Shown here one piece after another: positions 1,601 through 60,610 of a stretch of 64,000 nucleotides of DNA. The translations under genes were made by a program, and so were the position numbers. The stretch lies in NCBI RefSeq assembly GCF_047948215.1, contig NC_134465.1, positions 19,798,022-19,862,021 on the forward strand. The letters run 5' to 3'. Source of the stretch: Lycorma delicatula. Taxonomy: Eukaryota; Arthropoda; Insecta; Hemiptera; Fulgoridae. Every line of letters begins with the position of its first letter. The stretch's first letter is position 1. The notes beneath the pieces are model-generated. The model was not told the origin of the DNA, did not search any database, and saw only the letters and a list, made by a program, of their open reading frames with translations.

Positions 1601-3675
1601 CAAAATGTTTAAGATTAGAATACGCAGAATACAAATTCTTTACAAATAATAATAATCTTAAAATCTTTAATATTATACAACTCTCCAAAAAGATTCGTTT
1701 GATTTTTAAAAGAAAAATTATTAAGTCTTTTAATATGTGTAATGTCAATTTTTTTATTTGTTTCACTATATTTTTTTTCGTACAACGAAAAAATTAGCGT
1801 ATAACGTTATTTGACAAGGAACTAATTAGGGACACAATTAAACTTTGGGAAAATATTTGTTATGTAAAAAACCGAAAGAGTTCTTAATACCAATAAGGAT
1901 TAATATATTTTATCAAGGTTTGAAGTGCAGAAAAATTCAAAAAATATAAACCCTAAGTAATCCATGTAACCTTTTTTCCTGAAAATTAAATCATATTCCC
2001 GACAAAAAGAATTTTTGAACGACTTTCTACGACCAAAATTGACAGAGTTATTACCCCGTTAAAATATTACCTTGTTTTTAACTGTTTGATAAAAATAACA
2101 TTTTACACTCATTTTTTGCAAATAACTTTAATAAAGCCTTATTAAAAAGTTTTAGAGCTTTCAATTTTTTTTCTATTTCTTTGACTATTTTCTTGAATTT
2201 ACTGAGAACCATCTTAAAGAAAATAATACGATAAACAATATAATTATTGTATCGATAATGCGAAATCTTTTATGTTCAAAGAAATTTTTTTGTTAAAAGT
2301 GGAACTTCCTCTTAGTTATACATAGACAATGTTCACGCTTAAAAACGATAACTACGTTTATCGTTATTAAAAGGCTGATATTATATTATACAGTAGTAGT
2401 ACATTCTGTTGTACATACGGAGGAAATCCAATTGTTTAAAAAAGAAGATATACAGATTTGCTTTTGCTCTAAACTAGCGATGTTTTTGTACAAACAAACA
2501 AATTATTCCACGTTTTACTTTTTCTAATACTATTAGTAAAGGATGTTTGATAACCATAACGGTTATGTAATTGTCAGACGTAATTTGTATTTGTTCTCTG
2601 ATAACTCAGGTTTAGATTACGGCACTAAAACAAAGAAATACGCAGCAGCATCACCGATTACAAACGTTTCCAATTATATTCTCTCTAATTATAAACGAAA
2701 ATCCCTCTTCTCGGTAATATTTAAACACGTAATGAGATATTCAAAATCTGATTACAATATTACTGTATAAGATACACTATTATTAATTACTGTAATGACG
2801 AAGGATAAGTTAAAACAACTATCTAAAAACATGACATAAGAAAATGCCATGTTACAAAAAGTAAGACGAGAAGTTACCGGATGAAAAATTCCTACGAAAG
2901 TTGACACTGACGACGTAAAAAAAAAAATAGGGAAAACAGGAAAAGCGCAATTAGGATTTAAAGAGAAGAAAAAGGATAAATTTAACAATTTGCCAAATTA
3001 TATACTTAGAAAAAACATTAAAAGTGACAAGAACTATTATGCCCTTTTTTGTCTGGAAGAAAGCATTTGGCTGAATATACTGAAGGTTAACGCTGTTGAA
3101 GATATGAAGTGTCCGGAAGACTAGACTAGAGGAATAACAAAGGACGTTTAGAGGGAGAGATAGTTAGGGATAAGTCGACGATGATGAAAATGGAAAAGGA
3201 GCGATTCAAGGTTATTGCATGTCATCAATGCTACAACATATCCAAGAAGTCCCCGCACCCTTAGACAAATATATGTTGTTTTTTGAACATTTATATTTAT
3301 GAATTGTTTATCGAGCGTCTACATATCTTGCGAAGCATCTCTGGAATACGGTTCAAAACACTACTTCCACATTGTTTCGCAATTATTCATTCGATAAGCG
3401 TTGATGTTGAGATACATATATTTTAATTATTTCATACAATGAGGTATAGGATGTTATACGATCGGGGGCTTCATGTTGGTCATTGTAATAGGGTTGGTGA
3501 TGTTTGAAAACCACAACGGATCCGACTTTCTTGTTCAATTGTTCACGGTATATTAAGTTCGGCCTCTCGTTTACGAAAACATTTAGTTAGAGACTGCTCA
3601 ATAGAATCGGCGAAGGCAATGCGTATTTAAATTATTATCTTCTTGTATGCATTACGCGACCTCTATTTGTAAGAC
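1601..3675. other. AT-rich stretch without a recognised gene
   Basis: I see no gene that I can name. A lysine-rich frame at about 2790-3120 on the plus strand is moderately open with stops, ending near a tryptophan-leucine stretch. It could be remnant transposon coding sequence, but I recognise no motif. The remaining short frames look random. Confidence 0.5.
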
Positions 3676-3975
3676 TTTTTTCTTTTTTCTGTTTAGCCTC
3701 CGGTAATTACCGTTCAGATAATACTTCAGAGGATGAATGAGGAAGATATGTATGAATGTAAATGAACTGTAGTCTTGTACAGTCTCAGGTCGACCGATCG
3801 TGAGATGTGTGGTTAATTGAAACCCAACCACCAAAGAACACCGGTATCCACCATCTAGTATTAAATTCCGTACAAAAATAACTGACTTTACTAGGAATTG
3901 AACGCTGGAACTCTCGACTTCCAAATCAGCTGATTTGGGAAGACGCGTCCACCACTAGACCAACCCGGTGGGTCC
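3676..3975 (-). mobile_element. tRNA-derived SINE, family A, copy 1
   Basis: On the minus strand the head reads CCGGGTTGGTCTAGTGGTG, containing an RNA polymerase III A box (TGGTCTAGTGG). It is followed by a B box close to GTTCAA, then the family body (GTTGGGTTTCAATTAACCAC, GTACAAGACTACA) and a tail of GGTAATTACCGGAGGCTAAAC plus an A-rich end. Flanks ATTTGTAAGAC and AATTTTAAGAC look like an imperfect target duplication. The 90-residue frame across it is a SINE artefact. Confidence 0.88.
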
Positions 3976-13779: not shown

Positions 13780-14395
13780 TGGCTGCAGTTAACCAGACGG
13801 AAATTGAAGTTGTTATCCATTTTCTGTACGCATGGAGTAGTACAGTGGAAATAATTTGGAATGCGTAATGCCTCTTTAACCGACTGGAAAAATTTTGGAA
13901 GGGATGTCTTTCTTTTTTCCTATTTAGCTTCCGGGAATTACCGTAAGGTATTACTTTAGAGGAAGAATGGGGATGATATGTACGAGTGTAAATGAAATGT
14001 AGTCTTGTACATTCTTAGTTCGAACATTCCTGAGATTTGTGGTTAATTGAAACCCGACCACAAAAGAATACCGGTATCCATAATCTAGTATTAAAATCCA
14101 TATACAAGTAACAACTGCCTTTACTAGGACATGAACGCTGGAACTCTCGACTTCCAAATCAGCTGAGCGAAGAAGTGTTCATCACTAGAGCAACCCGGTG
14201 GGTTAAACGATGGTGGTGTAGTGGACACCGTAATGTAGTGGAATGTCTGCGGACATGTTACTCCGTAATCCAATAATACTAGGCGGGAATGGTCTGAACG
14301 TGGAAATAGAACAATTTCTTTTTTCAAGACGTAAATACAATGTGGGGACTACACTCTCAGCAGCGGGTATTAGCGGGAATTTGTAGAGAAGAAAT
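13780..14395 (+). pseudogene. Merlin-type (ISXO2/IS1016-like DDE) transposase relic, split by a SINE
   Basis: Downstream of the SINE, the plus strand from about 14207 gives ADMLLRNPIILGGNG, NVEIEQFLFSRRKYNVG, and in another frame VLAGICREE. This follows the pattern GGxxxxVEIDExxFxRRKYxRG...WVFGGxxRE known for Merlin/IS1016-like transposases. The acidic residue after VEI is Glu instead of the usual Asp. Upstream of the SINE, about 13790-13895 gives a hydrophobic segment (VVIHFLYAWS) plausible for the family's preceding region. The sequence breaks at 14393, where a short transposon copy begins. Frameshifts, stops and two insertions show it is dead. Assignment rests on remembered motifs. A second relic lies at 36410-36900. 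Confidence 0.6.
13908..14204 (-). mobile_element. tRNA-derived SINE, family A, copy 2
   Basis: Minus-strand head CCACCGGGTTGCTCTAGTG with a slightly altered A box, B box region near CAGCGTTCATGTCC, body GGTTTCAATTAACCACAAAT and GTACAAGACTACA, tail TAATTCCCGGAAGC and AAAAAGAAAG. It interrupts the Merlin-type transposase. No clean target duplication was seen. Confidence 0.85.
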
Positions 14396-14806
14396 CTGAT
14401 ATGGGCACCACATAACTTCCTTGTACGCCTATTGAATTACATATACACTTTTTTTTTTTTTAATGAGAAGTACATAACATTTTATTTCATTAATAACTTC
14501 TGATATTTTTTCTATTTTTGTTATTATTTATTGTAATTTTTTTTTACAATCATATGTAATAATTATTAATAAATCAATATAATTAAATTTAAAAAAAAAG
14601 TTAAAAAACAAAACAGGAGATGAAAACTGATTCGAACCGACATGCCTTTCTGTTCGAAGATCTAAATATTTAATTAAAGTTTTATTTTGCTTTGACTCTG
14701 GAACTGGTGAAAATAAGTATCACTTATTAAAACGTCTCAATTAGGGCTTATTACTGCAGTTAATAAAAAGTTCAAAATCCATTTGGGCTTTTTTAGAGAC
14801 TATAAA
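14393..14806 (-). mobile_element. Short transposon-like repeat family E, copy 1 (truncated)
   Basis: Family E is a ~0.6-kb AT-rich repeat with CTTCCTTGTACG near both ends. On the minus strand this copy ends with TAGGCGTACAAGGAAGTTATGTGGTGCC and contains the ATTTAATTATATTGATTTATT block. It is truncated near 14806. It begins directly after the Merlin relic's GICREE segment. Confidence 0.75.
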
Positions 14807-15275
14807 TTATCAAAAACCGTATTAAAAAAATGTTTTATTTAAATTAGAAACTTATTTCATCTATTTTTATTTCTCTGGCACCATAGTTTAATAGCTATGT
14901 TTGCAAAGTAGAAAGTATGATAATCAGCCCAAAACTGGGGTATAAGTTTTTTTTCACTTCTCGAGGTTTCAGATCCAGGGATGTTCAAAAAACAAATCAA
15001 AAATGGGGAGTAATACGTAAGTTACCTACGTAAGTATACTTACGTAGGTATGTGTTTGAAGCTTAATCATTTTTAAAATAACAATCTGATTTTGATGAAT
15101 TTTGGCACACAGACTCGTGTATATAGGACAATTTTTTGGTTTAGGTTTGGGGTTAATATATCCAGGGGATGGGGTAGATAATTTCTTGGGGTCAATTTTC
15201 TCAAAAATTTGCAAACATAGCCCCACTTTTTATTAAGCTCAGTACAGGCATGCGTGCTTATATTATCATTTTAAA
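14807..15275. other. AT-rich stretch between two family E copies
   Basis: No gene recognised. Contains a short near-palindrome of TACGTAAGTTACCTACGTAAG and TACTTACGTAGG at about 15014-15050. Confidence 0.45.
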
Positions 15276-15866
15276 AAAATCTGATATGGCACCACATAAT
15301 TTCTTTGTACGCCTACTAAATTGTATATACACATTTTTTTTTTTAAATGAAAAGTATAAAAAATTTTATTTCATTAATAACTTCCGATATTTTTTCATAA
15401 TTTTATTTTTATTGTTATTATTATTGAATTATTATTTATTGTAATTTTTTTTACAATCAGAGGTTAATAATTAAATATTAATAAATCAATATATTTAGAT
15501 TAGAAAAAAAGTTACAAAAGAAAGGAGATGAAGTCGGATTTGAACCGATGAGCCTTCCTTTTGTAAGATCCAATAATTTCATTAATTAACATTTTTTTAG
15601 GCATAACTATGGAATCAATGAAAATAAGTATCAGTTATGATATATCGTTGAAAAGCTCTCAATCAGGGCTTGTTACTGCAGTTAAGAAGAAATCCAAAAT
15701 CCAAATAGTTTTGGATTTTGAGTTTTTTAGATACTTGGGTTCAGTCGATTGCAATCAAAAGGAAGGTGCACAACTAGATGTTACAATAGTCATAAATCCA
15801 AAATTTCAACATCCTACGGCTAATCGGTTTTGACTTATGCGAGATAGTACGTACAGACGTCACGCC
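15276..15866 (-). mobile_element. Short transposon-like repeat family E, copy 2
   Basis: A near-full copy in reverse orientation. The end ATCTGATATGGCACCACAT is followed by TTTGTACGCC, with the interior marker GGACTATTGTAACATCTAG equivalent at 15775-15800 and CGTCACGCC at the far end. The 74-residue frame at 15609-15833 lies wholly inside it and is not a gene. Confidence 0.8.
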
Positions 15867-15968
15867 AAAGGGGGGAGCTCGCTTCGAACACCATTCCCGT
15901 CTAGTCAGAGTGCTCTGCCCCTTGGATCCCGCAGTGTTCGTTATCCTCGTGGTTGTGAAAATAATACT
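15867..15968 (-). repeat. Dispersed repeat family I, copy 1
   Basis: The minus strand reads ACAACCACGAGGATAACGAA, GGGCAGAGCACTC, TAGACGGGAATGG and TTCGAAGCGAGC. The plus strand at 56095-56240 has the same order. It abuts family E copy 2. Confidence 0.65.
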
Positions 15969-16260
15969 AATAAATAACGATAAAAAGCATTCAGGGTGAG
16001 AAATATTTATGCGTTTGGTAAAATATTTTCAAACATTGGTGATAAAAAAAATAAAAATTGCCACTGTACTTTTATTAGAAGTACTTTTAGAAGTAACTCA
16101 TATTAAATGAACATAAATTCCAATTTTCCACGTTTTAGTTCATAAAAACTGTTGAGCAATTTGTTTTATAATTGAGCATTTTTTTTATAACTGGAAATAT
16201 ATATTTCATTTACAGATTGGTTGAAATCAATAGATTTTGTTAATTTGTGATTATAATTAG
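15969..16260. other. AT-rich flank of the hAT-type locus
   Basis: No gene recognised. The last eight bases, ATAATTAG (16253-16260), may be the left target duplication of the hAT-type element that starts at 16261. Confidence 0.5.
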
Positions 16261-16439
16261 CAGTGGCGGCTCGCGTATAGGCACTGTGGAACTGCAACGC
16301 CTCCTATTTCCACACGATATTAACATTTAATATAACGAGTCCTTTTTTCTTTAATCTTTCTGTATATTTATACAATATATAATCGTTAAACTTAATGTTA
16401 GTAGCCATCACCCAGTTTACGAGAAAGATGCAAAAATAT

Positions 16440-16696
16440 TTGTATGGAACTGTGCGCTTCACAGTTCCACCGGCGTGGTGTTTGGCTGTTGTGCGCAAGC
16501 GCACATAGGAAGTTGCACGCGAGACTGCAAGGGAGAGAGCACTGTCGCTCCCGCAGTTCCGACCCTGGCGTGCTGATAGAAGGTAGTTTTTTTAATCCGC
16601 GTGCGTATAGAACGTTCCTTGTTCCTTCCCTTTTCCAGTTTAGTCGGTGCAAGGAATATGAAACCGGTTTAGTTTTTTTTCAGTATTGATCAGAAG
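16440..16696 (+). promoter_or_regulatory. GC-rich promoter-like leader upstream of the amphiphysin exon
   Basis: GC- and CpG-rich relative to the AT-rich surroundings. TGCGCAAGCGCA at 16492-16503 differs by one base from the NRF-1/Ewg consensus and lies in the inverted repeat GTGCGC-AA-GCGCAC. No clear TATA box is seen. The region ends in a T-rich stretch and CAGTATTGATCAGAAG before the ATG. That it is promoter or 5'UTR of Amph is inferred from position; transcription is not shown by sequence. Confidence 0.4.
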
Positions 16697-16765
16697 ATGG
16701 CGGAAAGTAACGGCTCTCTGATTGTCAAATCTGTCCAAAAACACGCTGGAAGAGCGAAAGAGAAG
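16697..16765 (+). CDS. Amph: Amphiphysin first coding exon (BAR-domain N-terminal helix)
   Basis: Amphiphysin binds and curves membranes through its N-BAR domain, at endocytic sites or, in flies, at muscle T-tubules. This 23-codon exon starts with ATGGCGGAAAGT and encodes an amphipathic N-terminus containing KSVQKHAGRAKEK. That is the hallmark H0 helix of animal amphiphysins, which continues as I/VLQxLGK in known proteins. The exon ends in phase 0 at AAG|GTAATTAGT, a good splice donor. The known exon 1/exon 2 boundary in BIN1/amphiphysin genes falls at the same residue, after the EK. There are no stops or frameshifts. No exon 2 with the expected LGKxDxTxDE motif was recognised downstream. The exon lies inside a hAT-type element, so it may be a captured duplicate. 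Identity is secure; function of this copy is not. Confidence 0.8.
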
Positions 16766-17145
16766 GTAATTAGTAAAAACTAATTATGTATTTGTTTCTG
16801 TGTGCATAGAAATTTAAATTAAGCACCGTTGGACTACAATGTTTTTAAACGGACCTTTTATTAAGTTATTATCTAATAATATTAACAAATATTATCTGTA
16901 TTGACATTTTATAATATATTCGGTTAAACCGAATACGACTTTTAAGCACAATGTGCTTAAAAACCGTGTAACATATTCTTGAATGTGATAAAGTGTAGAA
17001 TTAGATTATTATCCTGCTTCCAGCTATTCTATTTGATTCATTTTCTCGGCTCTTTTATAGAAAATTTTAACCGTGCACTTGAAAAAGCCCAGAAAACACT
17101 TTTTGGAGCAGCAACCTCAAAAATTTTAGCTACAAGCTGCCACTG

Positions 17146-19305
17146 GTAACTAGTCTATAATTTTTCTGTCTAGTTTAAAAAACTTAAATTTTAAAATAAT
17201 TTTCAAAAGTAGTTTGAAGAAGCTTAAAGTAGGGCCTAACAAACGAAATATCTTAGAAAACAATGTATTGATGTCTAATATCTTAAGGCCGTGCGTCTGG
17301 ATTCAAATATTTGATTAAAACTATCATGTTGCTGCCGTTTGACTTTCGGCAATTTCATTGTTTTACGTTAGATTTTTAATATTGGTTTTATTTCGTAGTT
17401 AGCATCAGACGTTTTATATCGTTTTAGCTTTTAAGGTAAATTGTAATTTTAATTTTTAATTACTTGCTATAGTAATTCTGTGCCTGGGCGCTGATAACAA
17501 CACCTAGTTGTGCGCCCAGAAAAAAATTTAATTAATTGTTTTTTTGTTAGGGATCACTTCTTTAAAAATTTTCACTAAAACAGAGAAAGGAAGCTCCTAA
17601 AAAAATATTCGAAATTTGAAAATTTTAATGCTTAAATCTTATTTTGGTGTCTATCATTATCAAAAAAAAATCTCTTGATACTTTGTCTTCCAAATTTAAA
17701 AAAAGATTGGGAAATTAAAAAAAAAAATGTTTGATCTCAACGGTAACAAAACTAATTTTGTAATATATTAAAAGCACCTTTCTTAATACGGTAAAATTGT
17801 GCAAGAACATTAATTACTTTTGAAGATTATTTTATTTTAAAATTTCGTAGAATTTTTTACGATTTTATTTATTTTTTTACAACTTTATTTTACTTTTTTG
17901 ATTTTAATATATCTTTGTATACTTCTCTTCTTAGTTTTTTTTTTAATATTACATTACTGGATTCTGACCAGGTTAACCGGGAAAATTATGCAATACTTGC
18001 CAGTTTATTTTTAAATTTTATTCTTATTTTATTTTCTCTTATTTGTATTTTATTTATTAATTTTGAAAAAAATTAGTTTTTATGACTAATATAATTATAC
18101 TCGAAAAAAGCAGTTATAAGGCGGTATCAAATTGGTAAAAATCAATATTTTTTAAATAACAACTTTTACATCTTTTTGAAGAAAGGCAAAATAATAAATA
18201 ATTAAAATTAACCGAAGAAAAATTAAATGAAATAAAAAAAAGGAGAAATAAGACAGAAATATACAGAACACAATCAATTTAAATTTTCTCAAGATACTGA
18301 CATTGTAAGCCGAAAAAAAGAAATAAATATTGAAAGAAGAAACCCCTGACAGGCGTGTAAGAAAGAAACCAAATAAGAGGTTGAACATTCATAACAAGGA
18401 CGTAAAAAAAAAGAATCAAAATCAGTGAAAAGAAATTGTGCTCCTCTATTTTCTTACAGTATCTATCCGATGAAACCTATCAAACAGGCAAGGCAATTCA
18501 TTTAAATAACAAGGCCTATTATAAATATATATCACGGTGAAATAATTCGATTTTATATTTTAGATAAGATGACTACCAATCGTTAAAGATAAATTATTAT
18601 GACGTTTACATCTTTTATTTCTCTTTCTCACTTGTGAATTGAATCGTTTAAACAGATATAAAGTTAATACAATTTATTTTCAATTTAAAATTTTGTACGC
18701 TTTCATATTTCATTAAATTTTAAATTCACACAATTTGTTTTTCTATTTTCCAATATTTCAAACGGTTATAAGCGCGTTCCGGTACAAAAATAAAAACACA
18801 TTCGCAAGTTTTCAATTATCAATTAGAAAAAAAGGTTCCGAAAGGCCTTCAATAAATCATGCAGCCATAAAATTGTATATTTTAGGCTTCTCTTTCTCTA
18901 TGCAAGTTCCATCAGGTTTTATAAAATTCCTTCACCCGGTTCTTACGTCAACCTTCCTTTAAGAATAGAATTTAAATTAAGAATAAAAGAAATAGATATT
19001 GTTGCTTGTTCGTCGTTCGACAAGGATAATGAGAAGCTAACAAATGTGAAAATTTCTTATAAATACGATTTATTACTATAAAAATTTATAAAATAAATAA
19101 TTGAAAAAGGAAATGACGCGACTATTCATAGGAATATCATCGAGGCATCTGAGGACTTTAAGTAACTTCGGTCTATATTATCACAGGAAAAAAAGAGTGA
19201 AAGATATATTAATCGCCTTACGCCTTTACGGAGGGGATGGCTATCCAAAAGAGCAATTTTTTTTGGTGATCTGAACGAATACGGAAAGGAACTAAATATA
19301 GATTG
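17146..19305. other. AT-rich stretch; small hairpin at 17484-17519
   Basis: If the exon at 16697 is the true Amph exon 1 this is intron 1, otherwise intergenic. CTGGGCGC (17484-17491) and GCGCCCAG (17512-17519) form a perfect 8-bp stem. The rest is AT-rich. No exon with an amphiphysin BAR motif was seen. Confidence 0.45.
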
Positions 19306-19756: not shown

Positions 19757-20399
19757 CCCTTTCGGCACGCCGGAAGGCGGAGGTAGATTTCACCGGTGCT
19801 AACTAGGGGATAAAAAAGGGGACAATGGTTGTATGTGAAAAAAAGTTTCACATGCTTAGCACACGACAAGCCCACCTTACAATTCCAGCAACATTTTGGT
19901 CGTACCTTGACGTAAGGTTTGGTTGGTCATATCAAAAGTTTTTCAGACAAATGTTTTAGGTAACGTTTAGAGAACTAACCAACATTTTAAACCGATTCGA
20001 TACTGTGCCTATTAAGGGAGGTATGATTTTTTTTGTCTTCGAAACCCCATTTTTTCCACCCCCTAGCTCAATGGTAAATGATATCAAAAAACTTTTCTTA
20101 TATAAGTTTTAGGCCCTTATCCAAAGAATAGTAAGAACTTTAAAAAATTCGATATTTTACTTAATATGAAAGTTACACCGATATTTTGTTTTCTAGAAAA
20201 AGCCAGGAGGGCTTTTTCGAAAAACTAAGAAAACTATAGCGATATTTTGCTTTTTGAAAATGACCCTTCATTTCCACCCCCATGGTCCGATTTTGGCCGT
20301 TAACGAACTCGACCGAGATTTTGGGACCAGTTATTTTTAAGAACATTTTGAAAGTGATTTGTGCAAAATTACGGCAGTTATCATGTCCACAAGAAAGTG

Positions 20400-20444
<45 letters not shown>

Positions 20445-20563
20445 TTTAAGCTGATGGTGGTTTTGTGGTCTGGGGGATGTGAAACGCGAAGATATGTCGA
20501 AATATTCTGGAAGTTGAATCATGGTATCCATTACAATAGGTAGCTTTCTTATGAAATCTACTT
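19757..20563 (+). repeat. Dispersed repeat family D, long copy
   Basis: One end is CCCTTTCGGCACGCCGGAAG followed by GGTAGATTTCACCGG; the other ends in CTTTCTTATGAAATCTACTT. An inverted copy lies at 54698-55412 and a fragment at 1-66. Conserved blocks include TCCGATTTTGGCCGTTAACG and ATCTCGGTCGAG-like words. A (TA)~20 tract sits at 20402-20440, whereas the other copy has a few TA units. It may be a non-autonomous transposon, but I found neither coding sequence nor target duplication. Confidence 0.85.
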
Positions 20564-20792
20564 AAAACAGAATTTATTTAACGTCAATTAAATTACAACT
20601 ACCAAAATGGAGTCCGATTTACTAAATGACTAATACTTTATAATGACTAATAGAAATTAATACTGCTTAACAATAATATAATAATGGATAAATCTAAAAT
20701 TTATAGAATTCACTTTCTGTAAATATTATTACTTTTACCGTTTACTAAAGAATTACCCTACACTTCAATAGAATACTGTCACTTTAGAATAC

Positions 20793-20960
20793 AGTAATCG
20801 TTTTTGAGTTACGCGAGATACATACGTACGTACGTGCAGACGTCACGCCGAAACCAGTCAAAATGGATTCAGGGATAGTCAAAATGTATATTTCCGTTAA
20901 AATCTGAAAAAATAAATTTTTCGTGATCCCAATAGTTCCTTCACTTCGTACAAGGAAGTA
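20793..20960 (-). mobile_element. Short transposon-like repeat family E, copy 3 (one end only)
   Basis: On the minus strand it begins TACTTCCTTGTACGAAGTGAAGG, continues with TTTCAGATTTTAACGG, TATTTTGACTATCCCTGAATC and CGTGACGTCTGCACGTAC, and ends in TAACTCAAAAACGATTA. The rest of the element is missing. Confidence 0.75.
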
Positions 20961-21902
20961 AACATTAGAAGAAAATTTCAAAATAGAATATCTGGCTTGC
21001 TGTCAGTATAGAAGATTGCAGAGACCCAATGCAGTTTCCCAATACCGACTGAAGACTTATCTTTAAAAATATGTAAAACAGATAATTGTATAATTAGACT
21101 GTAGTGTAATTAAACAGTCTAGAAACTTAATTTTAACACAACAGTAAAGGAAATTCATAGATAAAAAAAAATATAGGACAAATTTACTTAACTTACGATT
21201 TTTAATTTATTAAAAATCATTTTTTAGTAATTAGTATATAATAACTTCCACATAGATTTTATTTAATATTGTGGGTATCTTTATTTAGTTTAAAGGTCCA
21301 CTGTAGCTTTATCTTTATCGAGAATACTTTTCAATCTTACTCTTTCCTATAAAATGAGGGTAGATTAGGGTGTGTTTGCCTATCCGGTTGACCTATTTAC
21401 GTAGATCGGACGGCACTTAAGCTAAATTTCCACAAAATCGACTTAAACTGTCTAAAATATAACTGTTCAGTCAAAATTTTCAAATATTGTAAATTAAACC
21501 GTTTACAGGATATAATGTTAGAAGATACACACTCGTAAACGTGCACCCGATCGATGTATGTATGTTAGTTTTTCTAATACAGAATTTTCTAATTTAAATT
21601 TTTAGCATTTTTACTGTGGTTTTCAAATCGATGAGCTAGCCGTGTATTTTACACCTTCTCCGCGGGTACAAGACGTAAATTTTTTACAGATAGCCTTTTA
21701 TCCATTCAATTATTTACTAAAGTTGCCAGTAAAAAGAAAAATTAACGAAAAAAATAACCTCGTAAAATTTCTTTTTACTGAAAATAGATATTTTGCGTTA
21801 ATTTAAAAACAATATAACAAAGCGATTCGTGAAGAATCTAACAAACCTTAACGATTTAAATTATAAATAAATTTCATATAAATGTAGCTTATGTTTTTTT
21901 TT
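20961..21902. other. AT-rich stretch, nothing recognised
   Basis: No coding or structural feature supported on either strand. Confidence 0.45.
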
Positions 21903-22315
21903 ATACATTTGTAGTTTCCCCGCCACCCGAAGCCGAACACGCATTTAAGCGTAAACTCAGCTCCGGGAATGCCTTCGCCTCAAACTACCTCGGAAGGACG
22001 CCAGACAGCCAGGACTCGGTCTTGTTGCATACCGTGCCTCAAATGAGGAGTTCCCAAAAGGGATCACCCCACCGGGATGTTCCCTTTGAAGCCTCGGCTT
22101 ACCAGAAGGGAGGCGTCAAGGCCTTTTGTAACCCGCAAACGTATCCCTCACCGGGAATACGGTTCTACATTCCCCTCAATGGCATCTCCAAGACGTCCCA
22201 GTCTTTTTACTTACGGCAAAAGCGGGATGTTTTCTTCGATAATCGATTTCAATAAACCGACGCAAAACCTGCGTAACTTATTCAAATATATTGAAGAAGA
22301 TTGAGCCAGTATACG
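21903..22315 (+). repeat. GC-rich island of unknown origin
   Basis: A sharp rise in GC content with overlapping short reading frames (22022-22255 and 22077-22304) in two frames, both proline- and arginine-rich. Neither matches a family I know. Style resembles the untranslated ends of GC-rich LINEs such as 24425-24835, so a retroelement fragment is likeliest. There is no clear A tail or target duplication. Confidence 0.4.
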
Positions 22316-22354
22316 AGTAAATTATTAATTACTTTAAAAAATATTCTGTCAAAT

Positions 22355-22507
22355 TTTTAAAATAGGGCGTAAATACGGTGCACCCTAGCTCAAATCCAAC
22401 GCGATTTTGAAAGGCTTAACCGAAATTAAGCCGGGTTAAGCCTTTCAAATCGCGTTAGAATTGGCCTTGGACGCACCGTTTTCAAGTTACGCCCTTTTTT
22501 AAAAATT
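22355..22507. mobile_element. Perfect-type palindromic element (~65-bp arms)
   Basis: The left arm begins TTTTAAAATAGGGCGTAA and includes ACGGTGCA and CGCGATTTTGAAAGGCTTAA. The right arm is its reverse complement, ending TTACGCCCTTTTTTAAAA. Arms meet with only an ~11-base loop (GAAATTAAGCC). Such small hairpin elements are typical of foldback-type MITEs. Confidence 0.8.
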
Positions 22508-22548
22508 AAAAAATTTTTGGATTTAAAATTGGCTGGTGAGTGTGAGTG

Positions 22549-22580
<32 letters not shown>

Positions 22581-22945
22581 CCCCAGATATTATTATTATT
22601 ATGATCCATGGTACTGTCCGGTAAATAGAAAGTAAATACTTTAATCCATACGGGTAATTAGAACCTAATACTGTAACAAAATGTCCGGGCGCTAATCTAG
22701 ATCATACTCCAGGATGAGTAGCCAAAGATTTGGGGTGAATTACAAAATCTGAGAATTTAAAATCCAATTTTATACAACATTAAAAATATATGAAAGGAAT
22801 TTCTAATTCTTTTAGATATTACTAGAATTTTTCCTACGCTCAAAAAAAAAATATATATATATATAGTATAGTATATAAATAATTGTTTATTTTTATGTCG
22901 TAATACGCACAAAAAAAAAATATATATATATATAAATTGTTTATT
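22508..22945. other. AT-rich stretch with TA and ATT microsatellites
   Basis: (TA)n at about 22555-22580 and two near-identical AAAAAAAAATATATATATATA words at about 22842 and 22912. No gene recognised. Confidence 0.5.
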
Positions 22946-23600
22946 ACTTCCTTGTACGAAGTAAAGGAACCGAAAAATTTCGGTTTTCAGATTTCAACAG
23001 AAATATCCATTTTGACTATCCCTGAATCCATTTTAACTAGTTTAGTAGCGTGACGTCTGTACGTATTTTGCATAACTCAAAAGCGATTACCCGTTGGATG
23101 TTGAAATTTTGGATTTAGGACTATTATAACATCTAGTGTTGCACCTCCCTTTTTGATTGCAATCAACTGAACCAAAAAAGCCTAAAATCCAAAACAATTT
23201 TGATTTTGGACTTTTTCTTAACTTCAGTAATAAGTCCTTATTTAGAGCTTTTTCAACGATATATCATGAGTGGTACTTGTTTTCATTGATTCCAGAGTCA
23301 TAGACAAATGAAATTTTAATTAATGAAATGTTTGGATCTTACAAGGGGAAGAAATATCGGATCGAATCAGACTTAATCTGTTTTCATTTTTTAACTTTTT
23401 TTTTAAATTTAATTATGTTGATTTATTGATAATTATTAAAATGCGATTGTAAAAATGGTTTCACGATAAATAATAATAAAAAAAATGAAAAAATATCAGA
23501 AGTTATTAACGAAATAAAATTTTATGTACTTTTCATTTTAAAAAAATGTGTACATGTAATTTAATAGGCGTACAAAGAAGTCATGTGATGCCCAGATTTT
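22946..23600 (+). mobile_element. Short transposon-like repeat family E, fullest copy
   Basis: Starts ACTTCCTTGTACGAAG and ends GGCGTACAAAGAAGTCATGTG, so CTTCCTTGTACG lies inverted near both ends. Internal blocks shared with other copies: GATTTCAACAGAAATATCC, GCGTGACGTCTGTACG, TGTTGAAATTTTGGATTTAG, GGATCTTACAAGGGGAAG. No coding capacity. At ~650 bp it is long for a MITE but consistent with a non-autonomous DNA transposon. Confidence 0.8.
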
Positions 23601-24424
23601 TTTTTACATCATAATACGTTACCTGCGATGCAGTAACATTGGATTATTTTAAAAAAAAGAAAAATTATAATTTATTACTGTAATAGAACGTGAAAAGATC
23701 ACCGATTTCATAATTTTATAATCGTTAGTTTTAAAATACAAAATAAAACTTTTAGAATTTATAATATGAAAATTCACATGTTTTGAAATCAATTTTATAA
23801 TGGTAGAACGATTAAAAAAATATGGCTGAGAAGAACAAGATATGAAAAATAAATTTGGTCGCGGTGATAAGACAAAAAATTAAAAATTATTATTAAAACA
23901 TGAAAGAAAGAAAAAAATGTTTGCAGTTGTCCCGACATTACATATTTGGCTTGAAAAAAGAGATTTGTCTATACCACGTTCAAACCATTTTCGCCTATTA
24001 TTACGTGTCACGGAATAACACGTCCACACACACTTCTCTTACAAACTTTTTTCAATCTGTTACTGCGACACTAGTCATACTAAATTCTTTGTTACATAAA
24101 CATCTCTTACTCCGTGCACGCACGAAATAAACGACAATTTCCAATTTCTGTTTGCTGGATTGCAGATACCGCTTCTTCAACAAGTAGAATTGTGAAAATT
24201 TGTTTTACATAACACCACTTATATTCCCGGACGCTTAATATAAGAGATAATTCATCACCTGTTGGTAAAACCTACGATTATGTAAAATATCTTTGGGTTA
24301 TAAAAAAAAAACTAACATATTGTTGTCTATCTGGTAAATCACGGATTAACTTAATCAAACACATGTCGGATGAAAATAACGAATAGTAAAAAACGCAGAA
24401 ACACAATTGAGATAATTTTTTCCC
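23601..24424. other. AT-rich stretch, nothing recognised
   Basis: Short frames such as 23900-24130 have no known motif and ordinary composition for the region. No feature supported. Confidence 0.45.
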
Positions 24425-24835
24425 CACCCTACCCCCCGGCAGTAATCCACAAAAGAGTAAAGCACAGCCCAGGTCATTGTCTATTCAAACGGACCTCCCC
24501 GTCGGCCGGCCATAAGTCTAGTCCGACAGGTCAGCCCGCCGGTTAGATCTTTTCATTGCCTGCCACTAACCCCTAGGGCGGGGTATCCAAGCCCGACTGT
24601 GTCGTTCCTGGACCGTACCCCAGAAGTCGGGTTCCGGTCTTGACGCCAATGCCTCTAGTGAGAGGACTCTGTGCAGGGCACTCGCACCGCGTCTCGGTCT
24701 TTTTCGCGATGGGATGAGACAGTCCCAGCGTCTCATCACTGTCGCCCATCCGTCCAAGCACATACGAACGGCAGCTCCGCGGGGGCTGTCCCTCAACCCC
24801 TCGCCGACAACACGATTGAAATAATTGAACACCTA
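24425..24835 (-). mobile_element. GC-rich 3' region of an R1-like LINE
   Basis: The minus strand ends with AAAAGATCTAACCGGCGGGC, then GGCCGGCCGACGGGGAGGTCC and GTTTGAATAGACAATGAC. The R1-like LINE at 35460-36430 ends with the matching AAAAGATCCAACCGGCGGC, GCCGGCAGGTGGGGAGGGCC and GTTTGAGTTAAAGGAC in the same orientation. It is probably the 3' untranslated region plus some coding end; the reading frames here are not conserved LINE domains that I recognise. Confidence 0.6.
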
Positions 24836-25369
24836 TTATAGTACACGGTCAGCGATTTAACTGTGATGATTGAAATATAACTACTACAGCGACAGATAAG
24901 ACAAACATTAGCCGTTTAATATCATATATTATTACTTAATCCGCAATTAAATGTGTAACGATATTAATAATTTAGAAAAAGAAACTACTGGAACGTATCC
25001 GCTTTTGAATTAAGACGTAATATACGTATTGGGACCGAAGGAATTTAATCACGTAAATAAAAATTTTATTAAAAATAAATAAAAAGTTATCGGCGGTGGA
25101 GTTTAAATTTATTTTGACAAGGTTGTAGGGATTATGTTTAGCGTATATTCAAAATTAAGAGGTAAAGAGAATAATTGAAGTGAAAAGAGGAGCAACAGGG
25201 GAGGTAGAAAGGAGGCACACCCAGTATAGTAACACAAGTGGATAGAATGAATGCGAACCGTTATTTTCATAAAATGCCACCATAGACTTCATGTGGAAAC
25301 TAAAAAAGAGGGATTCCACCCTGAAGATATAGGTAGTGAATATATATTATTCCGTGCATTTTAGGGGTT

Positions 25370-25640
25370 AATAAAAAATGAAAAATGTAACGAGCGTTGA
25401 TTTTTTAAATATTAGTGTAGGTACTAGAGTTACTGAAGACGCTGGCGCGATGTAACGACAGGGGGGATCGTCAGTTGAGCAATGGTTACTGCGAAGGAGA
25501 ACGCAATGGGCGTACTGTAGTTTCATGGAAGCGGATCTGTCATTACTGTTCATAGACGTTTCGTGTAGAGTTTGGCCCCGCAGACTTACCGTTTTGGAGC
25601 TGTAACTTGTGAAAGTTTGAAAATATTGTGAATTAGGCAC
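25370..25640 (+). pseudogene. Mariner-like transposase N-terminal fragment (DUF4817 helix-turn-helix)
   Basis: Plus strand at about 25480-25600 reads AKENAMGVL, a stop, then FHGSGSVITVHRRF and, after another shift, WPRRLTV. This matches the N-terminal DUF4817 pattern (VLWFHExxSVITVQRRFR) of mariner-related transposases common in insects. A matching central and C-terminal portion lies downstream at 28795-30000 in the same orientation, so both may be halves of one copy split by about 3 kb of later DNA. That link is an inference. The reverse frame 25368-25640 is a shadow. Confidence 0.55.
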
Positions 25641-26504
25641 GTGTTCGAAACCAGTTCGAAACAGTAGCTGAACAATCCCGATCTCCTCGGCTACAGTAAA
25701 AACAGGACCGCTGCGTTGCCATTGTACCGCTGTAACTCTGGAATGCTAAGTCGTACAAGAAAATTGTCTGAATAAAAGTTGTTTGATTTTTTGAGATTAA
25801 CAACTTTTCCAAATGCAATACAGACGAAAAACAATTTTTTCCGGTGAAAACTCCGAAAAAAACACGTTTTTTACAACTTCAGCGCCACCTAGTATTTTAA
25901 TTTCAAATTATACGGCATAACTTCAAAGACATTAATTGTAGACGAGAATGTCCTTTACAGTTTTTGTTCGAAAAACGTTTCTCTAAAATGCATAGATTCA
26001 GAGAAAAACGTATTTCAATAACTTTTTGAGTTTTTCAAAAATCAATGGGAGGGGGGATTTTAAAAATCTGGAGTTGAGCTTCCCTCCTCATCATCCCTAA
26101 CGCATGGACAAAAGATCAATCGGTAGGTAAGGATTTTCAAATACAGCCTATTTTGATGACAAATTGCCTGTACTACTGTTTTGATTTGTAATTTTATTAC
26201 TCATAAATGAAAATAATGATGAAATATTTTTCTTTAAAAAAACCACTTATTCAAAAATATATTTTAATAATATAAATACTGGACGAAACAAAATTTATTT
26301 CTAATAATTGCATCTAATCGCTTCACATAAAATGTTTATACGCTTGCTTATAAACATCATCCAAATTACAAAATAAATAATATAATGATTTATTTTTGAC
26401 TTAATTACTTTTTCAAATATTATTTCGTAATGATGTCATCGTGGTAAAAGCTTTTTTAAATTCATAAATATCGAATGCTATTTTATCATTTATATAATAC
26501 TAGC
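25641..26504. other. Unassigned stretch between transposase fragment and family H
   Basis: Contains GGACCGCTGCGTTGCCATTG and, at 26045-26055, a short G-rich word. No recognised gene or terminus. Confidence 0.4.
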
Positions 26505-28345
26505 GGACCCGACAGACGTAAATATAAGTAACTTATTTAAGTTAAAATTAGCAGGAATGTGGACGAAATTTCATTTATATGACTATTATCAGTTTGTCAT
26601 TGTTGTATTATTGTAACGGGTTTATTGATTAATTATGTGTAGTATGGTTAATATTTATTTTCACAAAATATTGAGATATCTGAAGAAAAACGAAACGTCG
26701 TAAAATTAATAATTAGTGTAATTAATAAATTTTGGTACTTACGTATTAACGCCACTGCAGCTACAGCTTTATTTAAAAACAATGTAGTCAATCGGATTTC
26801 GGTGGAAAATGGGCCGATATAGAGTTTAACATAGATTAAAACAGTCTCTTTCTTAATTTTAATAATGGTTATTTATATTTATTTATTTTATAAATATAAT
26901 TTAACCAAACTTAACCTACGCTCGCTTCGCTCGCTAACCTTGACTAATTAACAGGAGTGTTTTGATTATTTAAATAATAAATAATTTCAATATGAACTGA
27001 ATTTATTAAATAAATACTCAAAAAATTACGGTATTAATTAGTCAAGGTTAGCGAGCGAAGCGAGCGTAGGTTAAGTTTGGTTAAATTATATTTATAAAAT
27101 AATAAAATATAAATAACCATTTATTAAAATTAATAAAGAGACTGTTCATTTTCCACCGAAATCCGATTGACTACTTTGTTTTTAAATAAAGCTGAATTTT
27201 GAAGTTTCATAACCATGTGATAGCTTAATTAATCAATTAATAAAAAATTAAAGCACTGTAAAAAAGCAACGCAGTTAAAATTTTAGTAGAAATTTTTATC
27301 ATTTTCCTCATTCTTTATTTTAACATCTATTTTACCAGATTTTAGATAATTGTAAATTAAAAACAATTTTTATAAAATTAAACAGCTACAAAAATTATAA
27401 CTTCAATTTTTTAAATATACTTTAAACTATAATTGTTATACGTAAATTATATTTTAATTTATAAATATTATAATTTATTTTGCAAACTGACATTTTATTT
27501 TTAAAGAGCCGTTCAATACTTCATAAGTTGCATAGAATCAAATGAGAACTGACAATTTAAATTTGTAGGTTAAGTTGATTGTTATTGAATGCAGGTGCAT
27601 ACATCATGTAAAATACTCACTTCAATACTGCATCTTACAAATTTGCACAATGTATATTTTTAATTACACTTTAAAACGTTATTTAAATAAATAATATTCT
27701 CAATAAGCCCGCAATTCTAGCAGACTCAGCAATCCTTCGCTATTGCTAGATTTGAGTATGCATACAAATTAATGAACACAATTGCAGGTTTCATAAAACC
27801 TTAAAAACAATGAACATTAGGAACTTCACAAAATTTAACTTTATAAAAGTTACACGGTAAATAATTCCAAATGGTAAAACAAAAGCACTACCTATCGGAT
27901 TTAATTCACACCACTCTCTAAACACAGTAGACTGTTAAAAATACGAATTTTAATGTAATAACAACATTAAGCAACGAGGCAAGTAACTGATATGCGAAAA
28001 AGCAACAAAATAAAAAAAATTCCTAGAATCCGATCGCACCACCAACTACCGGTTCTGACTGATATGCCAAAAATTAAAAAAATTCTAAAACGCGATCGCA
28101 GCGCTGCCTACCGGATTTAATTGCGAACCTTAACCATCGCAAGATCAACATCAACACATAAATAAATAAATAATTTAATAAACATTTTCTATCGGATCAC
28201 ACTGTGAATCTAAACCATTCTCGAATCAACTTAATCACACACACAAAATTTCATCAAAATCAGTCCAGTCGTTTAGGAGGAGTTCAGTGACAAACATACG
28301 CACAGAAGAAATATATATATATATATATATATATATAAAGATAAA
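26505..28345 (+). repeat. Dispersed repeat family H, CTAGCGGACCC start to ATATATAAAGAT end
   Basis: Begins ACTAGCGGACCCGACAGACG and ends with AATTTCATCAAAATCAGTCC, GTTTAGGAGGAGTTCAGTGA and (TA)n AAAGAT. Both are ends of a repeat type widespread in insects. Inside are a long foldback (26765-27193) and, at 27720-27900, a block resembling the start of family C (CCTTCGCTATTGCTAGATTTGAGTAT, compare 58805). The unit may be several related elements rather than one. Confidence 0.5.
26765..27193. repeat. Long foldback with ~160-186-bp arms
   Basis: Left arm 26765-26950 and right arm 27034-27193 are near-identical reverse complements. Both contain AATCGGATTTCGGTGGAAAA, ACAGTCTCTTT and the block CTTAACCTACGCTCGCTTCG, which itself includes the palindrome CGCTCGCTTCGCTCGC. 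The left arm has a ~28-base extra segment after GGAAAATG. The spacer is ~83 bases. Confidence 0.9.
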
Positions 28346-28794
28346 ATTCTTACTTTTATTTTTCATCTTTATTAAATTAATCCTATAAATTAATTTAAAA
28401 CCATAATTTAAATTAAATAATGCCAAAAGAAATGATGATGGCAAGGAACAATCCAGCAAAATTATCCCTAAAAATTTTACGAATAGACGCTATATTAGAA
28501 TGTGTACAAAAGAACCGTTTCAAATACAGTTAGAATCTTCTGAGAGATATCATAGAATATAAAATCATGTAAAAAAATATTTTTAGTTTTAAAGAGAAAT
28601 TATTCATTACGTACGGCACATTATGTGCCGTAATGCAGTCGTCAAGGACAATAAGGCCCGTACATCACAACAGTTAACTTAAATTACTTACCGTTCAGCA
28701 CTGTACTGAAATTACGCAAATGACGACAAGCACAAAGCAACTCCCTATTACGGCACATATATGCGCCGTACCGCAGCGAACGTGTTAAGGGCGC
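28346..28794. other. AT-rich stretch with paired GGCACAT/GTGCCGTA palindromes
   Basis: CGGCACATTATGTGCCG at about 28615-28631 is a short palindrome. TACGGCACATATATGCGCCGTA at about 28748-28770 is a similar one. They could be termini of a small element ~140 bp long (28610-28775). No gene recognised. Confidence 0.45.
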
Positions 28795-30000
28795 TGGAAG
28801 TGTAATACACAAAAAAGCTCCTGGCAGATCACCCATCCTCGAAGAAATTGTAGATCGAGAAAGTAAAACTTTTCAGAGAATCCGAGTAAATCCACTCGTC
28901 TTACGAGTGACGAACTGGGAATACTGTGACGGTATCAGATAATTGTGACGGTTCTATATAAACGTGTAAAACTTCATGCATACAAAATTCAGTTGGTGCA
29001 TTGAAGATGACGATAAATCACGCTGTTACAATCTTGCAGTGACACTCTTGATAAAATGAACCAAGATAATACGTTTTTAAAAAAAGTAATTTTTTCTAAC
29101 CGAGTTACCTTCCATGTTTCTGGTCAAGTTAGTAGTCATAATTATCAGAATTTGGATAGCTGGACATAACGTGATAGCCCCAAAATTAAACTTTGGCGTG
29201 CGTTGATCGCTTATGAAATGATCACATCAATCTTTTTCGCCGAGCCAACAGTTAATCCCACTACTAATGTTACAGGTATGTGTCTGTCTATCTATTGCTA
29301 GATATATTACAGGAGACCCACCGGGTTGGTCTAGCGGTGAACCCGTCTTCCGAAATCAGCTGATTTGGAAGTCGAGAGTACCAGCGTTCAAGTCCTAGTA
29401 AAGTCAGTTATTTTTATACGGATTTGAATACTAGAACGTGGATACCGTTATTCTTTGGTGGTTGGGTTTCAATTAACCACACATCACACGATCGGTCGAC
29501 CTGAGACTGTACAAGACTACACTTCATTTACACTCATACATATCATCCTCTGAAGTATTATCTGAACCTTACGGTTCATTACCGGAGGCTGAAAAGGAAA
29601 AAGAAATAAGATATGTTACAGGAATTTCCAGTAACACAAATTGGACATCGGCAACCTAACATTTATTTCCAGCAAGATGGCGCAACACCATTCTGGGGTT
29701 TACATATTTTATGTACCTAAATGAACAATTTCTCAAAGTCGGATCGATAGTATGTATCAATTCCCTGACCATCCCGATCGCTAATTTACGCTACTTAATT
29801 CCTCTCTTTTTGGGTGTTTCTCTAAGATAGGATATACGCAAAGAAGGTTGTCAACATTAATGAATTAAAAAGAAGAATCGAAGGTGTAATTAACGGATTA
29901 CCATCACGTAATCTTCGTAATGTGTAGCGTAAAACTGAATACTGTCTAGAGTCTAGATATTTTACGCGCCGCAAAAGGAGCTCAAGCGGAACTTATTTGA
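28795..30000 (+). pseudogene. Mariner-like (DUF4817-type) transposase, middle to C-terminus, split by a SINE
   Basis: Plus-strand pieces in family order: PGRSPILEEIVDRESKTFQR (linker), LDKMNQDNTFLKKVIFSN with RVTFHVSGQV (the segment around the first catalytic Asp, here not intact), AYEMITSIFFAEPTVN, then the SINE, then YFQQDGATPFWGLH (second catalytic Asp), and a C-terminal INELKRRIEGVINGLPSRN. Order and spacing match IFSDEATFH...FFAEPTV...FQQDGAPPHW in insect transposases. Multiple stops and frame changes and the SINE at 29315-29608 make it a pseudogene. It may continue the N-terminal fragment at 25370-25640. Confidence 0.75.
29315..29608 (+). mobile_element. tRNA-derived SINE, family A, copy 3, with 15-bp target duplication
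   Basis: Head CCGGGTTGGTCTAGCGGTGA with A box TGGTCTAGCGG, B box GTTCAAGTC at about 29389, full body and tail ending AAAAGGAAAAAGAAATA. Flanks AGATATATTACAGGA (29300-29314) and AGATATGTTACAGGA (29609-29623) are a 15-bp duplication with one mismatch. It interrupts the mariner-like transposase, so it is younger than that element. Confidence 0.95.
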
Positions 30001-32466
30001 AGTTAATAAGTTCTGTAAACAACACTTATCGACTTCCTTTTTAACTTATATAGTTTGTCAGCATTTAAGAGCTTCGATAGATGTAAATGAAATTCAAAAA
30101 ACCGAGGAATAAAGACTGTAAGTACATTCCACGTATAATTGAATTAAACAAACGCTCCGCTCGATTATCGGTAGGTTATACCCGTGAGATTACTTAAAAC
30201 GAATAACGCGGTACAACCCGATTTTATTAAATTATACATATATTAAAACAGCATCCAATTTTTACTGTTTATTTAGAATTTAATTACATTTATTTTTCTT
30301 ATCGCTTTTTGTGACTTGAGAGAGAAGGCACATATTAAATTTAACTTCTGAATTTTTGCCGCAGTTACATTAACCTAAAGTTCCGATGGAACTGTTTGTT
30401 GTTCGTATCAGTTTAAAACAGATTATGAAAACTAATTTAAACTAGGATTAAATTAAATCTATCCTATTATTTTCCCGGCGAATATAGCTAGAATAGTTAT
30501 AGTATTATATATTATTAGAATAGCTACATTATTTATTTATAGTTATATTATAGCTATGATTAATAGCTATATTAAAGAGAAAAGTACAGTGAAAAAATTT
30601 GGTATCGAGGTTTTAGCAAGTTTTTACGTTATAAAGTCCAGTTAGCTCATGTAGATTATAAAAAAGATCCGTATGTGTGTATATGCATAATTATGTCTCG
30701 CACGGCTTTTGGGATGTGCGTATGTAGGTCAGTTTTATATTACTTTCCCGGCGAATGTAGTTAAAATAGTTTTGCTATGGGGGAAAAGTATGGCGAACAT
30801 ATCAAAAGTGGGTCATCGGTTTTTTTGCATTTACTTTTTAGGGTCCCACTAGTTCATCTAGATCACTTGTTCTCAAAGTGGGCGATAAATTCAAAACTGG
30901 GTAATGGTGATAGAAAAATTTTATTAACAGATCTGTAATGTACGCAAAGAAGCAATTCAAAAAAATTGTATCGCACTTAGAGAAACATTAAAAAATAATT
31001 TATAACAAAAATTCTTTAATTTATTTAAACTAGAATTATTCGGATAACACAAGATCAGTGAAATATTTTTAATTTAGGGGGAATACAAATTATGACTATT
31101 TTTGTTGTTAAACAAAATTAATACTTAAATAAATGTTTCATATTTACGCAAAATAAACAAAAATTATTTATGCGTAATACAACAATCAGATTTAAATTGT
31201 TTTGTTTAAATAATTAATTACAGTAAACGATGAAAAGGATACAGATATTATTATTATTAAAACAAACAATGGAATATAACAATAGGTTGATCAAAAAACA
31301 CATTGCCACCCGGTTACGTTAACTACGGTTTATAATTAAAGGGTAAAGTGAGAAATAAATTCTGTTATAAATAATTACTGAAATAACAGATTGATTGACA
31401 CAATTTAGGTTTTTCTACAAGTGAAAATAAACAAGCCGGTGAAGCCCACAATTAGCTCATTATATCTTTGCCGCTTCAATTGTTCGATTAACAATAAGGT
31501 TTATCATATTATAATCGCTTAACAGTTTTCTGTTAATTTACGTATCGGTTTAATTTCGTTAATAAAATTAATCTTTAAAAACTGAAGAGCGTTATAAAAA
31601 ATATTCCTTTTTGATTACTAGAGACCGGATTATATGCAACATGAAAAGCTTGAAATAAGAATGCAAATATGTATGAAAAATGCTTAAAATAACTACGAAA
31701 AGCTTCAAAATATGCGACTTTAAATAATAAAAAAATAGTAATTTTTAGTTTTTTTATTTCAAAATCAGCATACAATTAGTAAGTAATTGAATAACATATC
31801 GATAAATTCGATAATTAAGTTATTTAACATTTTGTTACTTTTGTAAACATAAATAGATGGAGGTATTGTTCCGCGGCTGCTAAGTGCGCTTTAAGAGCCG
31901 TGCAGCTAATAGGTTTGGCCGGCTACAACGTAAGATTTCATTTATTAACATGGTACCCTACCGAAAAATATTGTAAATGTAGCGAAAATATGCATCATCA
32001 CTAGATTTGAATGAAAACATGCGATAACCGGTGAGAACGGGCTTAATATGAAAATGGATAAAATCCGGTATCTATTGATTCCATTTTAATCTACTCTGAA
32101 TTTATACCCGTGTAAAACTTAAAAACAGAAAACATTCCTAACATGTCTCATTAACTGATAAAATTTAAGCTTTTTTCTATTTGATAAGTAATTTTGGATG
32201 TTTCTGGATGAAGGTTTCCCATTTATTAAGGATTTTTCAATTAAAAGCTGCTTCCGTCCGCAAAGCAATAAAAAACTGGAATGATAATTTAAACGGTATG
32301 AAAAAATAATGTGTCCGCTATTTAAAAGTAGTGATTATTAAAAAAAGTGGTGAATTGGTTTTAAAAAGAGAATCTTCATTTAAAATAGCTGTTGCAGAGA
32401 AAACATGTGTTGTAATATCAAACAATTACATACAGCAAGCAAATTAAAATTTCATCTGGATTTGAT
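30001..32466. other. AT-rich stretch with a family G repeat copy
   Basis: At about 30737-30900 the words ATATTACTTTCCCGGCGAAT, TTTTTAGGGTCCCACTAGTTC and TCAAAGTGGGCGATAA match the minus strand of 47960-48297. A weaker start of the same word occurs near 30468. The remainder shows no recognised gene. Confidence 0.5.
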
Positions 32467-32853
32467 TGGCACAGCAATAATTATTATGTATTTGTTTCTT
32501 TGTGCATAGAAATTTAAATTAAGCAGCATTGGACTATAGTGTTTTTAAGCGGACATTTTATTAAGTTATTATAATACTAAAAAATATTATCTGTATTGAC
32601 ATTTTATTATTTATTCGGTTAAACCGATAAGGTTTTTAGCACACTGTGCTTAAAAACCGTGTACCACATTCTTGAATTTGATAAAAGTGTAGAATTAGAT
32701 TATCATCCTGCTTCCATCTATTCTATTTGATTTATTTTATAATAAAATATTCTTTTATTATACAGAAAACTTTAACCGTGGCCTTGAAAAGGCCCAGAAA
32801 AACAATTTCTGATGCAGCACCCCCACTTATTTTAGCTACGAGTCGCCACTCCT
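32467..32853 (+). mobile_element. hAT-type 3'-end fragment, homologous to 16777-17145
   Basis: Matches the right part of the amphiphysin-carrying element over its whole length: ATGTATTTGTTTCT, GCATAGAAATTTAAATTAAG, CTTAAAAACCGTGTA and ATTTTAGCTACGAGTCGCCACTC. It lacks the exon, the leader and the left terminus. It starts within bases of where the amphiphysin segment ends in the 16-kb copy, which marks the likely boundary of the foreign segment. Confidence 0.8.
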
Positions 32854-47555: not shown

Positions 47556-47775
47556 TTTTGCAGCTAATTTTCGAAGTCAAAGTTACTAAAAATCAAATCC
47601 TAGTAAAAGTTAGTTACTTTTATACAAATTTGGGATTTGAACACTAAACAGCGGATACCGGTGTACTTTGCTGGTCGGGGTTCAATTAACCAACCACAAA
47701 TCTTAGGTACGGTCGGCCTAAGTGTGTACAAGACTACATCTCATTTAAATGTCATACAAATCATCCTCATTAGGT
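47556..47775 (+). mobile_element. tRNA-derived SINE, family A, copy 4 (damaged)
   Basis: Body words AAATCCTAGTAAAAGTTAGTTA, GGATACCGGTGTACTTTG, GGGGTTCAATTAACCAACCAC, GTACAAGACTACATC and CATACAAATCATCCTCATTAG. The head is degraded and the tail is missing after ATCCTCATTAGG. The 47637-47834 frame is an artefact of it. Confidence 0.75.
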
Positions 47776-47809
47776 GTGGGAGGGGTCTGTTTATTATATG
47801 CTATTCCAA

Positions 47810-60605: not shown

Positions 60606-60610
60606 TCTAC

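Follow-up and report, generated by a model that had tools for sequence, protein, structure and literature searches.

An amphiphysin first exon between hAT-like ends in Lycorma delicatula: a probable gene-fragment capture by a non-autonomous transposon

Introduction

When the first exon of a host gene is found between the ends of a transposon, does it mark the true start of that gene, or is it a fragment that the transposon has acquired? The question is raised by an 885-bp segment of the fulgorid insect Lycorma delicatula, located at positions 16261–17145 of a 64-kb stretch of contig NC_134465.1 (the whole of the DNA that was analysed, hereafter the window), in which hAT-like ends enclose the first exon of the amphiphysin gene (Amph). 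Judging from the sequence, the segment is probably one old, non-autonomous hAT-type element with a captured 5′ fragment of Amph, i.e., an animal Pack-TIR (TIR, terminal inverted repeat). Capture is the best reading because the ends are paired, the flanking 8-bp duplication agrees at 6 of 8 positions, the transposon sequence stops at a sharp breakpoint near the exon, and no other N-BAR piece occurs in the window. A first-pass annotation of this DNA had already proposed capture by a hAT element, and that proposal is retained here with the qualification that we infer, rather than observe, that both ends belong to a single element.

An Amph first exon with leader and splice donor

The coding exon lies at positions 16697–16765 (+) and comprises 23 codons (69 bp, phase 0) in an open frame that encodes MAESNGSLIVKSVQKHAGRAKEK. 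When the PDB chains were searched with phmmer, the sole match up to E 10 was 1uru_A (Drosophila amphiphysin), residues 1–23 of which align to residues 1–23 of the exon with an E of 1.8e-4; the KSVQKHAGRAKEK within the exon is identical to that of the Drosophila protein. In a profile search based on 194 retrieved Amph proteins, the exon likewise ranked first among the window's 3513 reading frames (E 4.4e-10), while the next-best frame reached an E of 2.4 and the best value in a reversed-sequence control was 10.

A start codon, a leader and a splice donor are all present around the exon. The usual donor consensus is MAG/GTRAGT (exon/intron), and the donor GTAATT at 16766–16771 (+), read as AAG/GTAATT, fits it by eye at 8 of 9 positions, the mismatch being the lack of a G at +5. 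The position of this boundary is conserved among Amph proteins. Three of the six proteins that had been set aside because the usual segment was absent (P0015, P0018 and P0019, whose N-termini differ or are missing) pick up the sequence shared by all at (I/L)LQNLGK, and these are the first residues that follow KEK in the remaining Amph proteins. Because alternative N-termini join at (I/L)LQNLGK, directly after KEK, the donor sits at a known exon boundary. The 1uru_A match, the profile and the alternative N-termini bear out the initial description of an intact 23-codon Amph exon with a donor at the conserved position, but the term “live” is not adopted for that donor, which lacks the G at +5.

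Transposon ends and target-site duplication

The segment begins with the TIR CAGTGGCGGCTCG at 16261–16273 (+) and ends with the TIR CAGTGGCAGCTTG at 17133–17145 (−), which faces outward and agrees with the left repeat at 11 of 13 positions. The left end's own site matches by construction, its sequence having served as the query; besides it, two further sites in the window match with two mismatches, against 0.08 expected at this tolerance (up to two mismatches), and the second of them terminates another copy of the element (32839–32851). Directly outside the segment are probable 8-bp copies of a target-site duplication, ATAATTAG at 16253–16260 and GTAACTAG at 17146–17153, that are alike at 6 of 8 positions. 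This level of agreement is reached by 1.1% of random 8-mer pairs drawn from the window. Both octamers also fit nTnnnnAn, and agreement at 6 of 8 combined with a fit of both members to that pattern is seen in 0.1% of random window pairs. The initial call of hAT termini with a 6/8 target duplication agrees with the inverted ends and with the imperfect ATAATTAG/GTAACTAG pair.

Pegasus-like miniature inverted-repeat transposable elements (MITEs) are related to hAT elements. In the excerpts consulted of a report on silkworm (PMC2997013), Pegasus-like MITEs have 8-bp duplications and the ends CAGTGGCGGATTA and CAGTGGCGGATTT; BmMITE-14 and BmMITE-16 resemble the present segment in their 8-bp duplication and in ends that start with CAGTGGCGG, after which their sequences and the segment's diverge; host-gene fillers are not mentioned in the excerpts. 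The pattern nTnnnnAn, for its part, is given in an excerpt of PMC2803484 as the target pattern of Hermes, a hAT element. Judged against the silkworm MITE table, the ends of the segment can be described as hAT-like.

The probable left subterminal region of the element extends from 16274 to 16566 (+), with a right edge that is approximate, and contains motifs of the GGAACTG type. Short repeats in subterminal positions are a frequent feature of hAT elements. Four of the window's ten occurrences of GGAACTG/CAGTTCC lie within 16288–16560, and this clustering in the left part is suggestive, the motif having been picked by eye from the left region itself. At 885 bp, the segment is too short for a transposase gene.

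A second copy and an abrupt breakpoint

The right part of the element (16783–17145, +) repeats at 32483–32850, and the second copy, which lacks any Amph sequence, spans 32483–32851 (+) with its right TIR at 32839–32851. Positions 16783–17144 and 32483–32850 are 83.5% identical. The recurrence without the exon that had been noted at 32467–32853 is thus real, with limits that are more exactly 32483–32850 (32851 being the last base of the TIR). At the inner edge, the first 43 bp are identical at 42 of 43 positions, and the similarity then ends abruptly, 17 bp past the exon. Left of this breakpoint, comparisons over 18, 30 and 45 bp are at chance level, with 46–83% of random pairs scoring as well (13% for 11 bp). 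The simplest reading, drawn from two copies only, is that the first copy passes from transposon into Amph sequence at the breakpoint. The probable captured Amph segment would then occupy 16567–16782 (+) and consist of the leader and exon 1 followed by at most 17 bp of intron 1, with the breakpoint as its right edge; its left edge is a provisional one, set after the last GGAACTG-type motif and otherwise unsupported.

Several other features of the two copies were considered. For the second copy, no left end (up to six mismatches) accompanied by a matching duplication (up to two mismatches) was found within 20001–32851. It is conceivable that the right part is an element in its own right that starts at 16783; a duplication would be expected across that edge, and since the flanking 8 bp match at 2 of 8 positions in both copies, an independent element from 16783 is unsupported. 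Two open reading frames (ORFs) that lie within the second copy or adjoin it have no Pfam match. A remnant of Amph exon 2 at 17061–17130 was also entertained and rejected: it is absent from the top 15 rows of the profile results, tblastn gave nothing there better than E 48, and the second copy contains the same stretch as part of the transposon. Exact patterns for further copies of the element had no matches in viral_contigs (three patterns) or genome_contigs (one pattern), neither of which is a collection of insects, and ten viral_contigs matches to a bare 16-mer, none with the exact 13-base end, were taken as chance.

Proposed origin of the composite

Under the capture reading, ~200 bp of host Amph (the leader, coding exon 1 and the donor, with at most 17 bp of intron 1) would have replaced or filled the interior of a single element to which both ends belong. 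A separate Amph gene could be the source of this filler, acquired when repair or replication within the transposon switched template. The size of the filler is in line with the median of 224 bp given for animal Pack-TIRs in the excerpts of Tan et al. (2021; PMC8277862). Movement of the composite, or of its parent lacking the filler, may have relied on a hAT transposase acting in trans. If transcribed, the exon could be joined through its donor to an acceptor further downstream. According to the same excerpts, single-copy Pack-TIRs arise mostly via template switching in gap filling, and multi-copy ones via fork switching followed by transposition.

Age, decay and coding potential

The two copies differ by 16.5%, which suggests ~8% change per copy and is in line with the two mismatches in the target duplication. 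In simulations of neutral decay, where both the substitution model and the rate of 0.12 indels per substitution were assumed, a 69-bp frame remained open in 44% of runs at 8%, and the open frame is therefore no sign of function. An open frame with no more than two amino-acid changes was left in 11% of runs at 8%, 35% at 5% and 62% at 3%, so that the exon appears rather well kept. The element itself is probably old and inert. The annotators' term “mobile 5′ exon” is accordingly not adopted for an element of apparent age that has no room for a transposase, and neither is their suggestion of fusion to new downstream genes.

Without splicing, the frame reads into the intron and ends there after five codons. 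A candidate acceptor AG occurs inside the element at 17059–17060 (+), and a predicted splice from 16766 to it would yield an open product of 45 aa, a prediction made from sequence and translation only. By eye, a pyrimidine-rich stretch and a CAG are also present at the homologous place in the second copy, at about 32766–32771.

Weighing the alternatives

Several observations weigh against capture. Neither a parental Amph locus nor a second exon-bearing copy is seen within the 64-kb window, and no second exon 1 occurs in the 16 kb left or the 47 kb right of the segment, while for 57% of published Pack-TIRs the parent is no more than 15 kb away (excerpts of PMC8277862). We lean toward a distant parent, or later movement, as the explanation for the missing nearby parent, if a parent exists. 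The target duplication is imperfect, with two mismatches of eight, and among pairs that already fit nTnnnnAn, 7.8% reach agreement at 6 of 8. A second copy of the left region (16274–16566) was not found in the window, and the left end's membership of the family is based on a 13-bp repeat, its orientation and a motif picked after looking. The exon is also better kept than decay of 8% usually leaves (the 11% outcome above). Finally, the residues that set the exon apart from other Amph proteins are less exceptional in certain comparisons: under a looser motif, 8 of 189 Amph proteins have at least two equally rare residues, and when 33 distinct sequences are used, only N5 is rare, while one or more such residues are found in 9 of the 33 and two or more in 4.

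The alternative that survives best is that the exon is the host's true Amph exon 1, with its promoter and a very long first intron, and that the two hAT ends are unrelated fragments. We regard this as unlikely, though some of the evidence would suit it. A genuine gene would account for the frame, start codon, leader and donor and for the KSVQKHAGRAKEK shared with Drosophila, and the transposon sequence on its right side might be no more than a common repeat within an intron, but this reading would also need a coincidence of two outward ends of the same type (0.08 expected per window) with the 6/8 duplication (1.1% of pairs). The composition of the exon can be argued in both directions. All 184 Amph proteins that show the exact motif carry K or R at residue 5, where the exon has N (0 of the 184), and V at residue 10, as found here, occurs in 1 of the 184, both of which speak against a genuine host exon; the 8 of 189 real Amph proteins that are equally unusual speak for one. 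The set of 184 is what remained of the 194 after 10 were dropped, including P0058 and P0089, in which the N-terminus diverges and carries an N at a distance of five residues from its start. Together, N5 and V10 point weakly to a drifting copy.

The search for the remainder of the gene bears on the same alternative. The Amph profile search found the window free of further N-BAR pieces, the 47 kb downstream of the exon included. At 20 residues, 237 of the 240 Amph pieces planted as a control scored above 10 bits, and at each of 25, 30 and 40 residues all 240 did; they were taken from the 215 residues after KEK of four held-out Amph proteins, relatives of which stayed in the profile. Since the planted pieces were recovered at 237 of 240 or better, an exon 2 inside those 47 kb would have shown, and a genuine gene would be compatible with this result if its first intron were longer. 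A query made of the exon and 17 residues of exon 2 matched 444 proteins of ~195–620 aa, and the absence of the exon from all of the best 120 argues against a genuine gene, though less strongly in a database that was clustered at 90% identity and limited to lengths near that of the query, where an exon-bearing member could hide behind its representative and from which the species is possibly absent.

A second alternative, which we consider improbable, is that a segmental or gap-repair duplication put the Amph 5′ end into a resident hAT copy and that the composite never moved as a transposon. The target duplication leaves room for such a history, as it dates the insertion of the transposon only and not the capture, but gap filling favours nearby parents and none is present in the window; in other respects, the data suit this history and capture with subsequent transposition alike. 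A chance resemblance of a non-Amph sequence, which might be invoked for an exon of a mere 23 codons, has a negligible probability in view of the E of 1.8e-4 for 1uru_A among PDB chains, the profile E of 4.4e-10 in the window (next 2.4, reversed control 10) and the donor at a known Amph boundary.

Surroundings in the window

A GC-rich sequence at 15880–15971, donor- and promoter-like by eye, was considered as a 5′ leader exon and rejected as a repeat that is 80% identical to 56095–56186. Just left of the element lies a member of a dispersed repeat family (15261–15865), with others at 14389–14781, 22971–23616 and 52394–52916, that are 69–79% identical. An additional repeat of ~300 bp occurs in at least five copies (3675–3974, 13909–14203, 29315–29610, 59222–59517 and 60610–60889; 78–88% identical), with shorter pieces at 47593–47879. 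When 19 of the window's open frames (9 of the 14 with at least 110 aa, plus 10 shorter ones) were compared with Pfam, none matched at the curated cut-off. Positions 41389–41589 (+) gave a weak match to DDE_3 (E 0.0069; 16.7 bits vs. a cut-off of 28.6) and look by eye like the decayed remnant of a mariner-type transposase. The open frame at 36413–36685 (−), which we take by eye to resemble a Merlin-type transposase, has no Pfam match up to E 0.1.

Comparison with known captures

The closest known systems are the animal Pack-TIRs surveyed by Tan et al. (2021; PMC8277862). In the excerpts of that paper, 100 animal genomes contained 370 Pack-TIRs, 208 of them in hAT elements, the commonest carrier; a parent copy at ≥90% identity was required, and 13.4% of the fillers had exonic sequence. 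Like the present segment, the hAT examples combine hAT ends with a short non-transposon filler that in some cases includes exons or 5′ untranslated region (UTR) sequence. For example, hAT-N8_XT of the frog holds 291 bp of the CAPSL 5′ UTR. Unlike those examples, which in the excerpts include no insect case, the filler described here has a start codon, a first coding exon and a donor. Pack-TIRs were absent from the insect reference genomes, an absence that the excerpts link to the small number of annotated TIR transposons in them, and the first-pass remark that such captures are rarely described in insects agrees with this part of the survey.

A piece of a host gene in an insect DNA transposon is also found in Ssk-FB4 of Drosophila melanogaster populations (excerpts of PMC8277862), although the carrier there is FB4 and the insertion is polymorphic and expressed, whereas the present segment has hAT-like ends and looks old. 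The Pack-TYPE elements of plants, as described in the excerpts of PMC8903248, resemble the proposed element in being non-autonomous DNA transposons that capture coding DNA, and differ in their hosts. A search of open-licence literature returned nothing that joins amphiphysin, a hAT transposon and an exon, and CAGTGGCGGCTCG was likewise not found; a similar search on Pack-TIR or Pack-TYPE elements and captured exons gave no insect hAT case among the matches listed.

Significance

It is tempting to imagine a multi-copy insect hAT family in which the promoter and start codon of Amph, its membrane-binding N-terminal helix and the donor form a mobile exon and promoter trap, with some copies spliced to the genes in or upstream of which they landed, but the odds of this are slim. 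The finding would carry much greater weight if other copies exist that are spliced to new genes. If confirmed, the segment would be an insect example of a hAT element that has captured part of a gene, a kind of case that the main survey did not find in insect reference genomes, and would be unusual for carrying what starts a protein and splices it onward. It would then also suggest that the gap among insects reflects the scarce annotation of their transposons and not a true absence of such captures.
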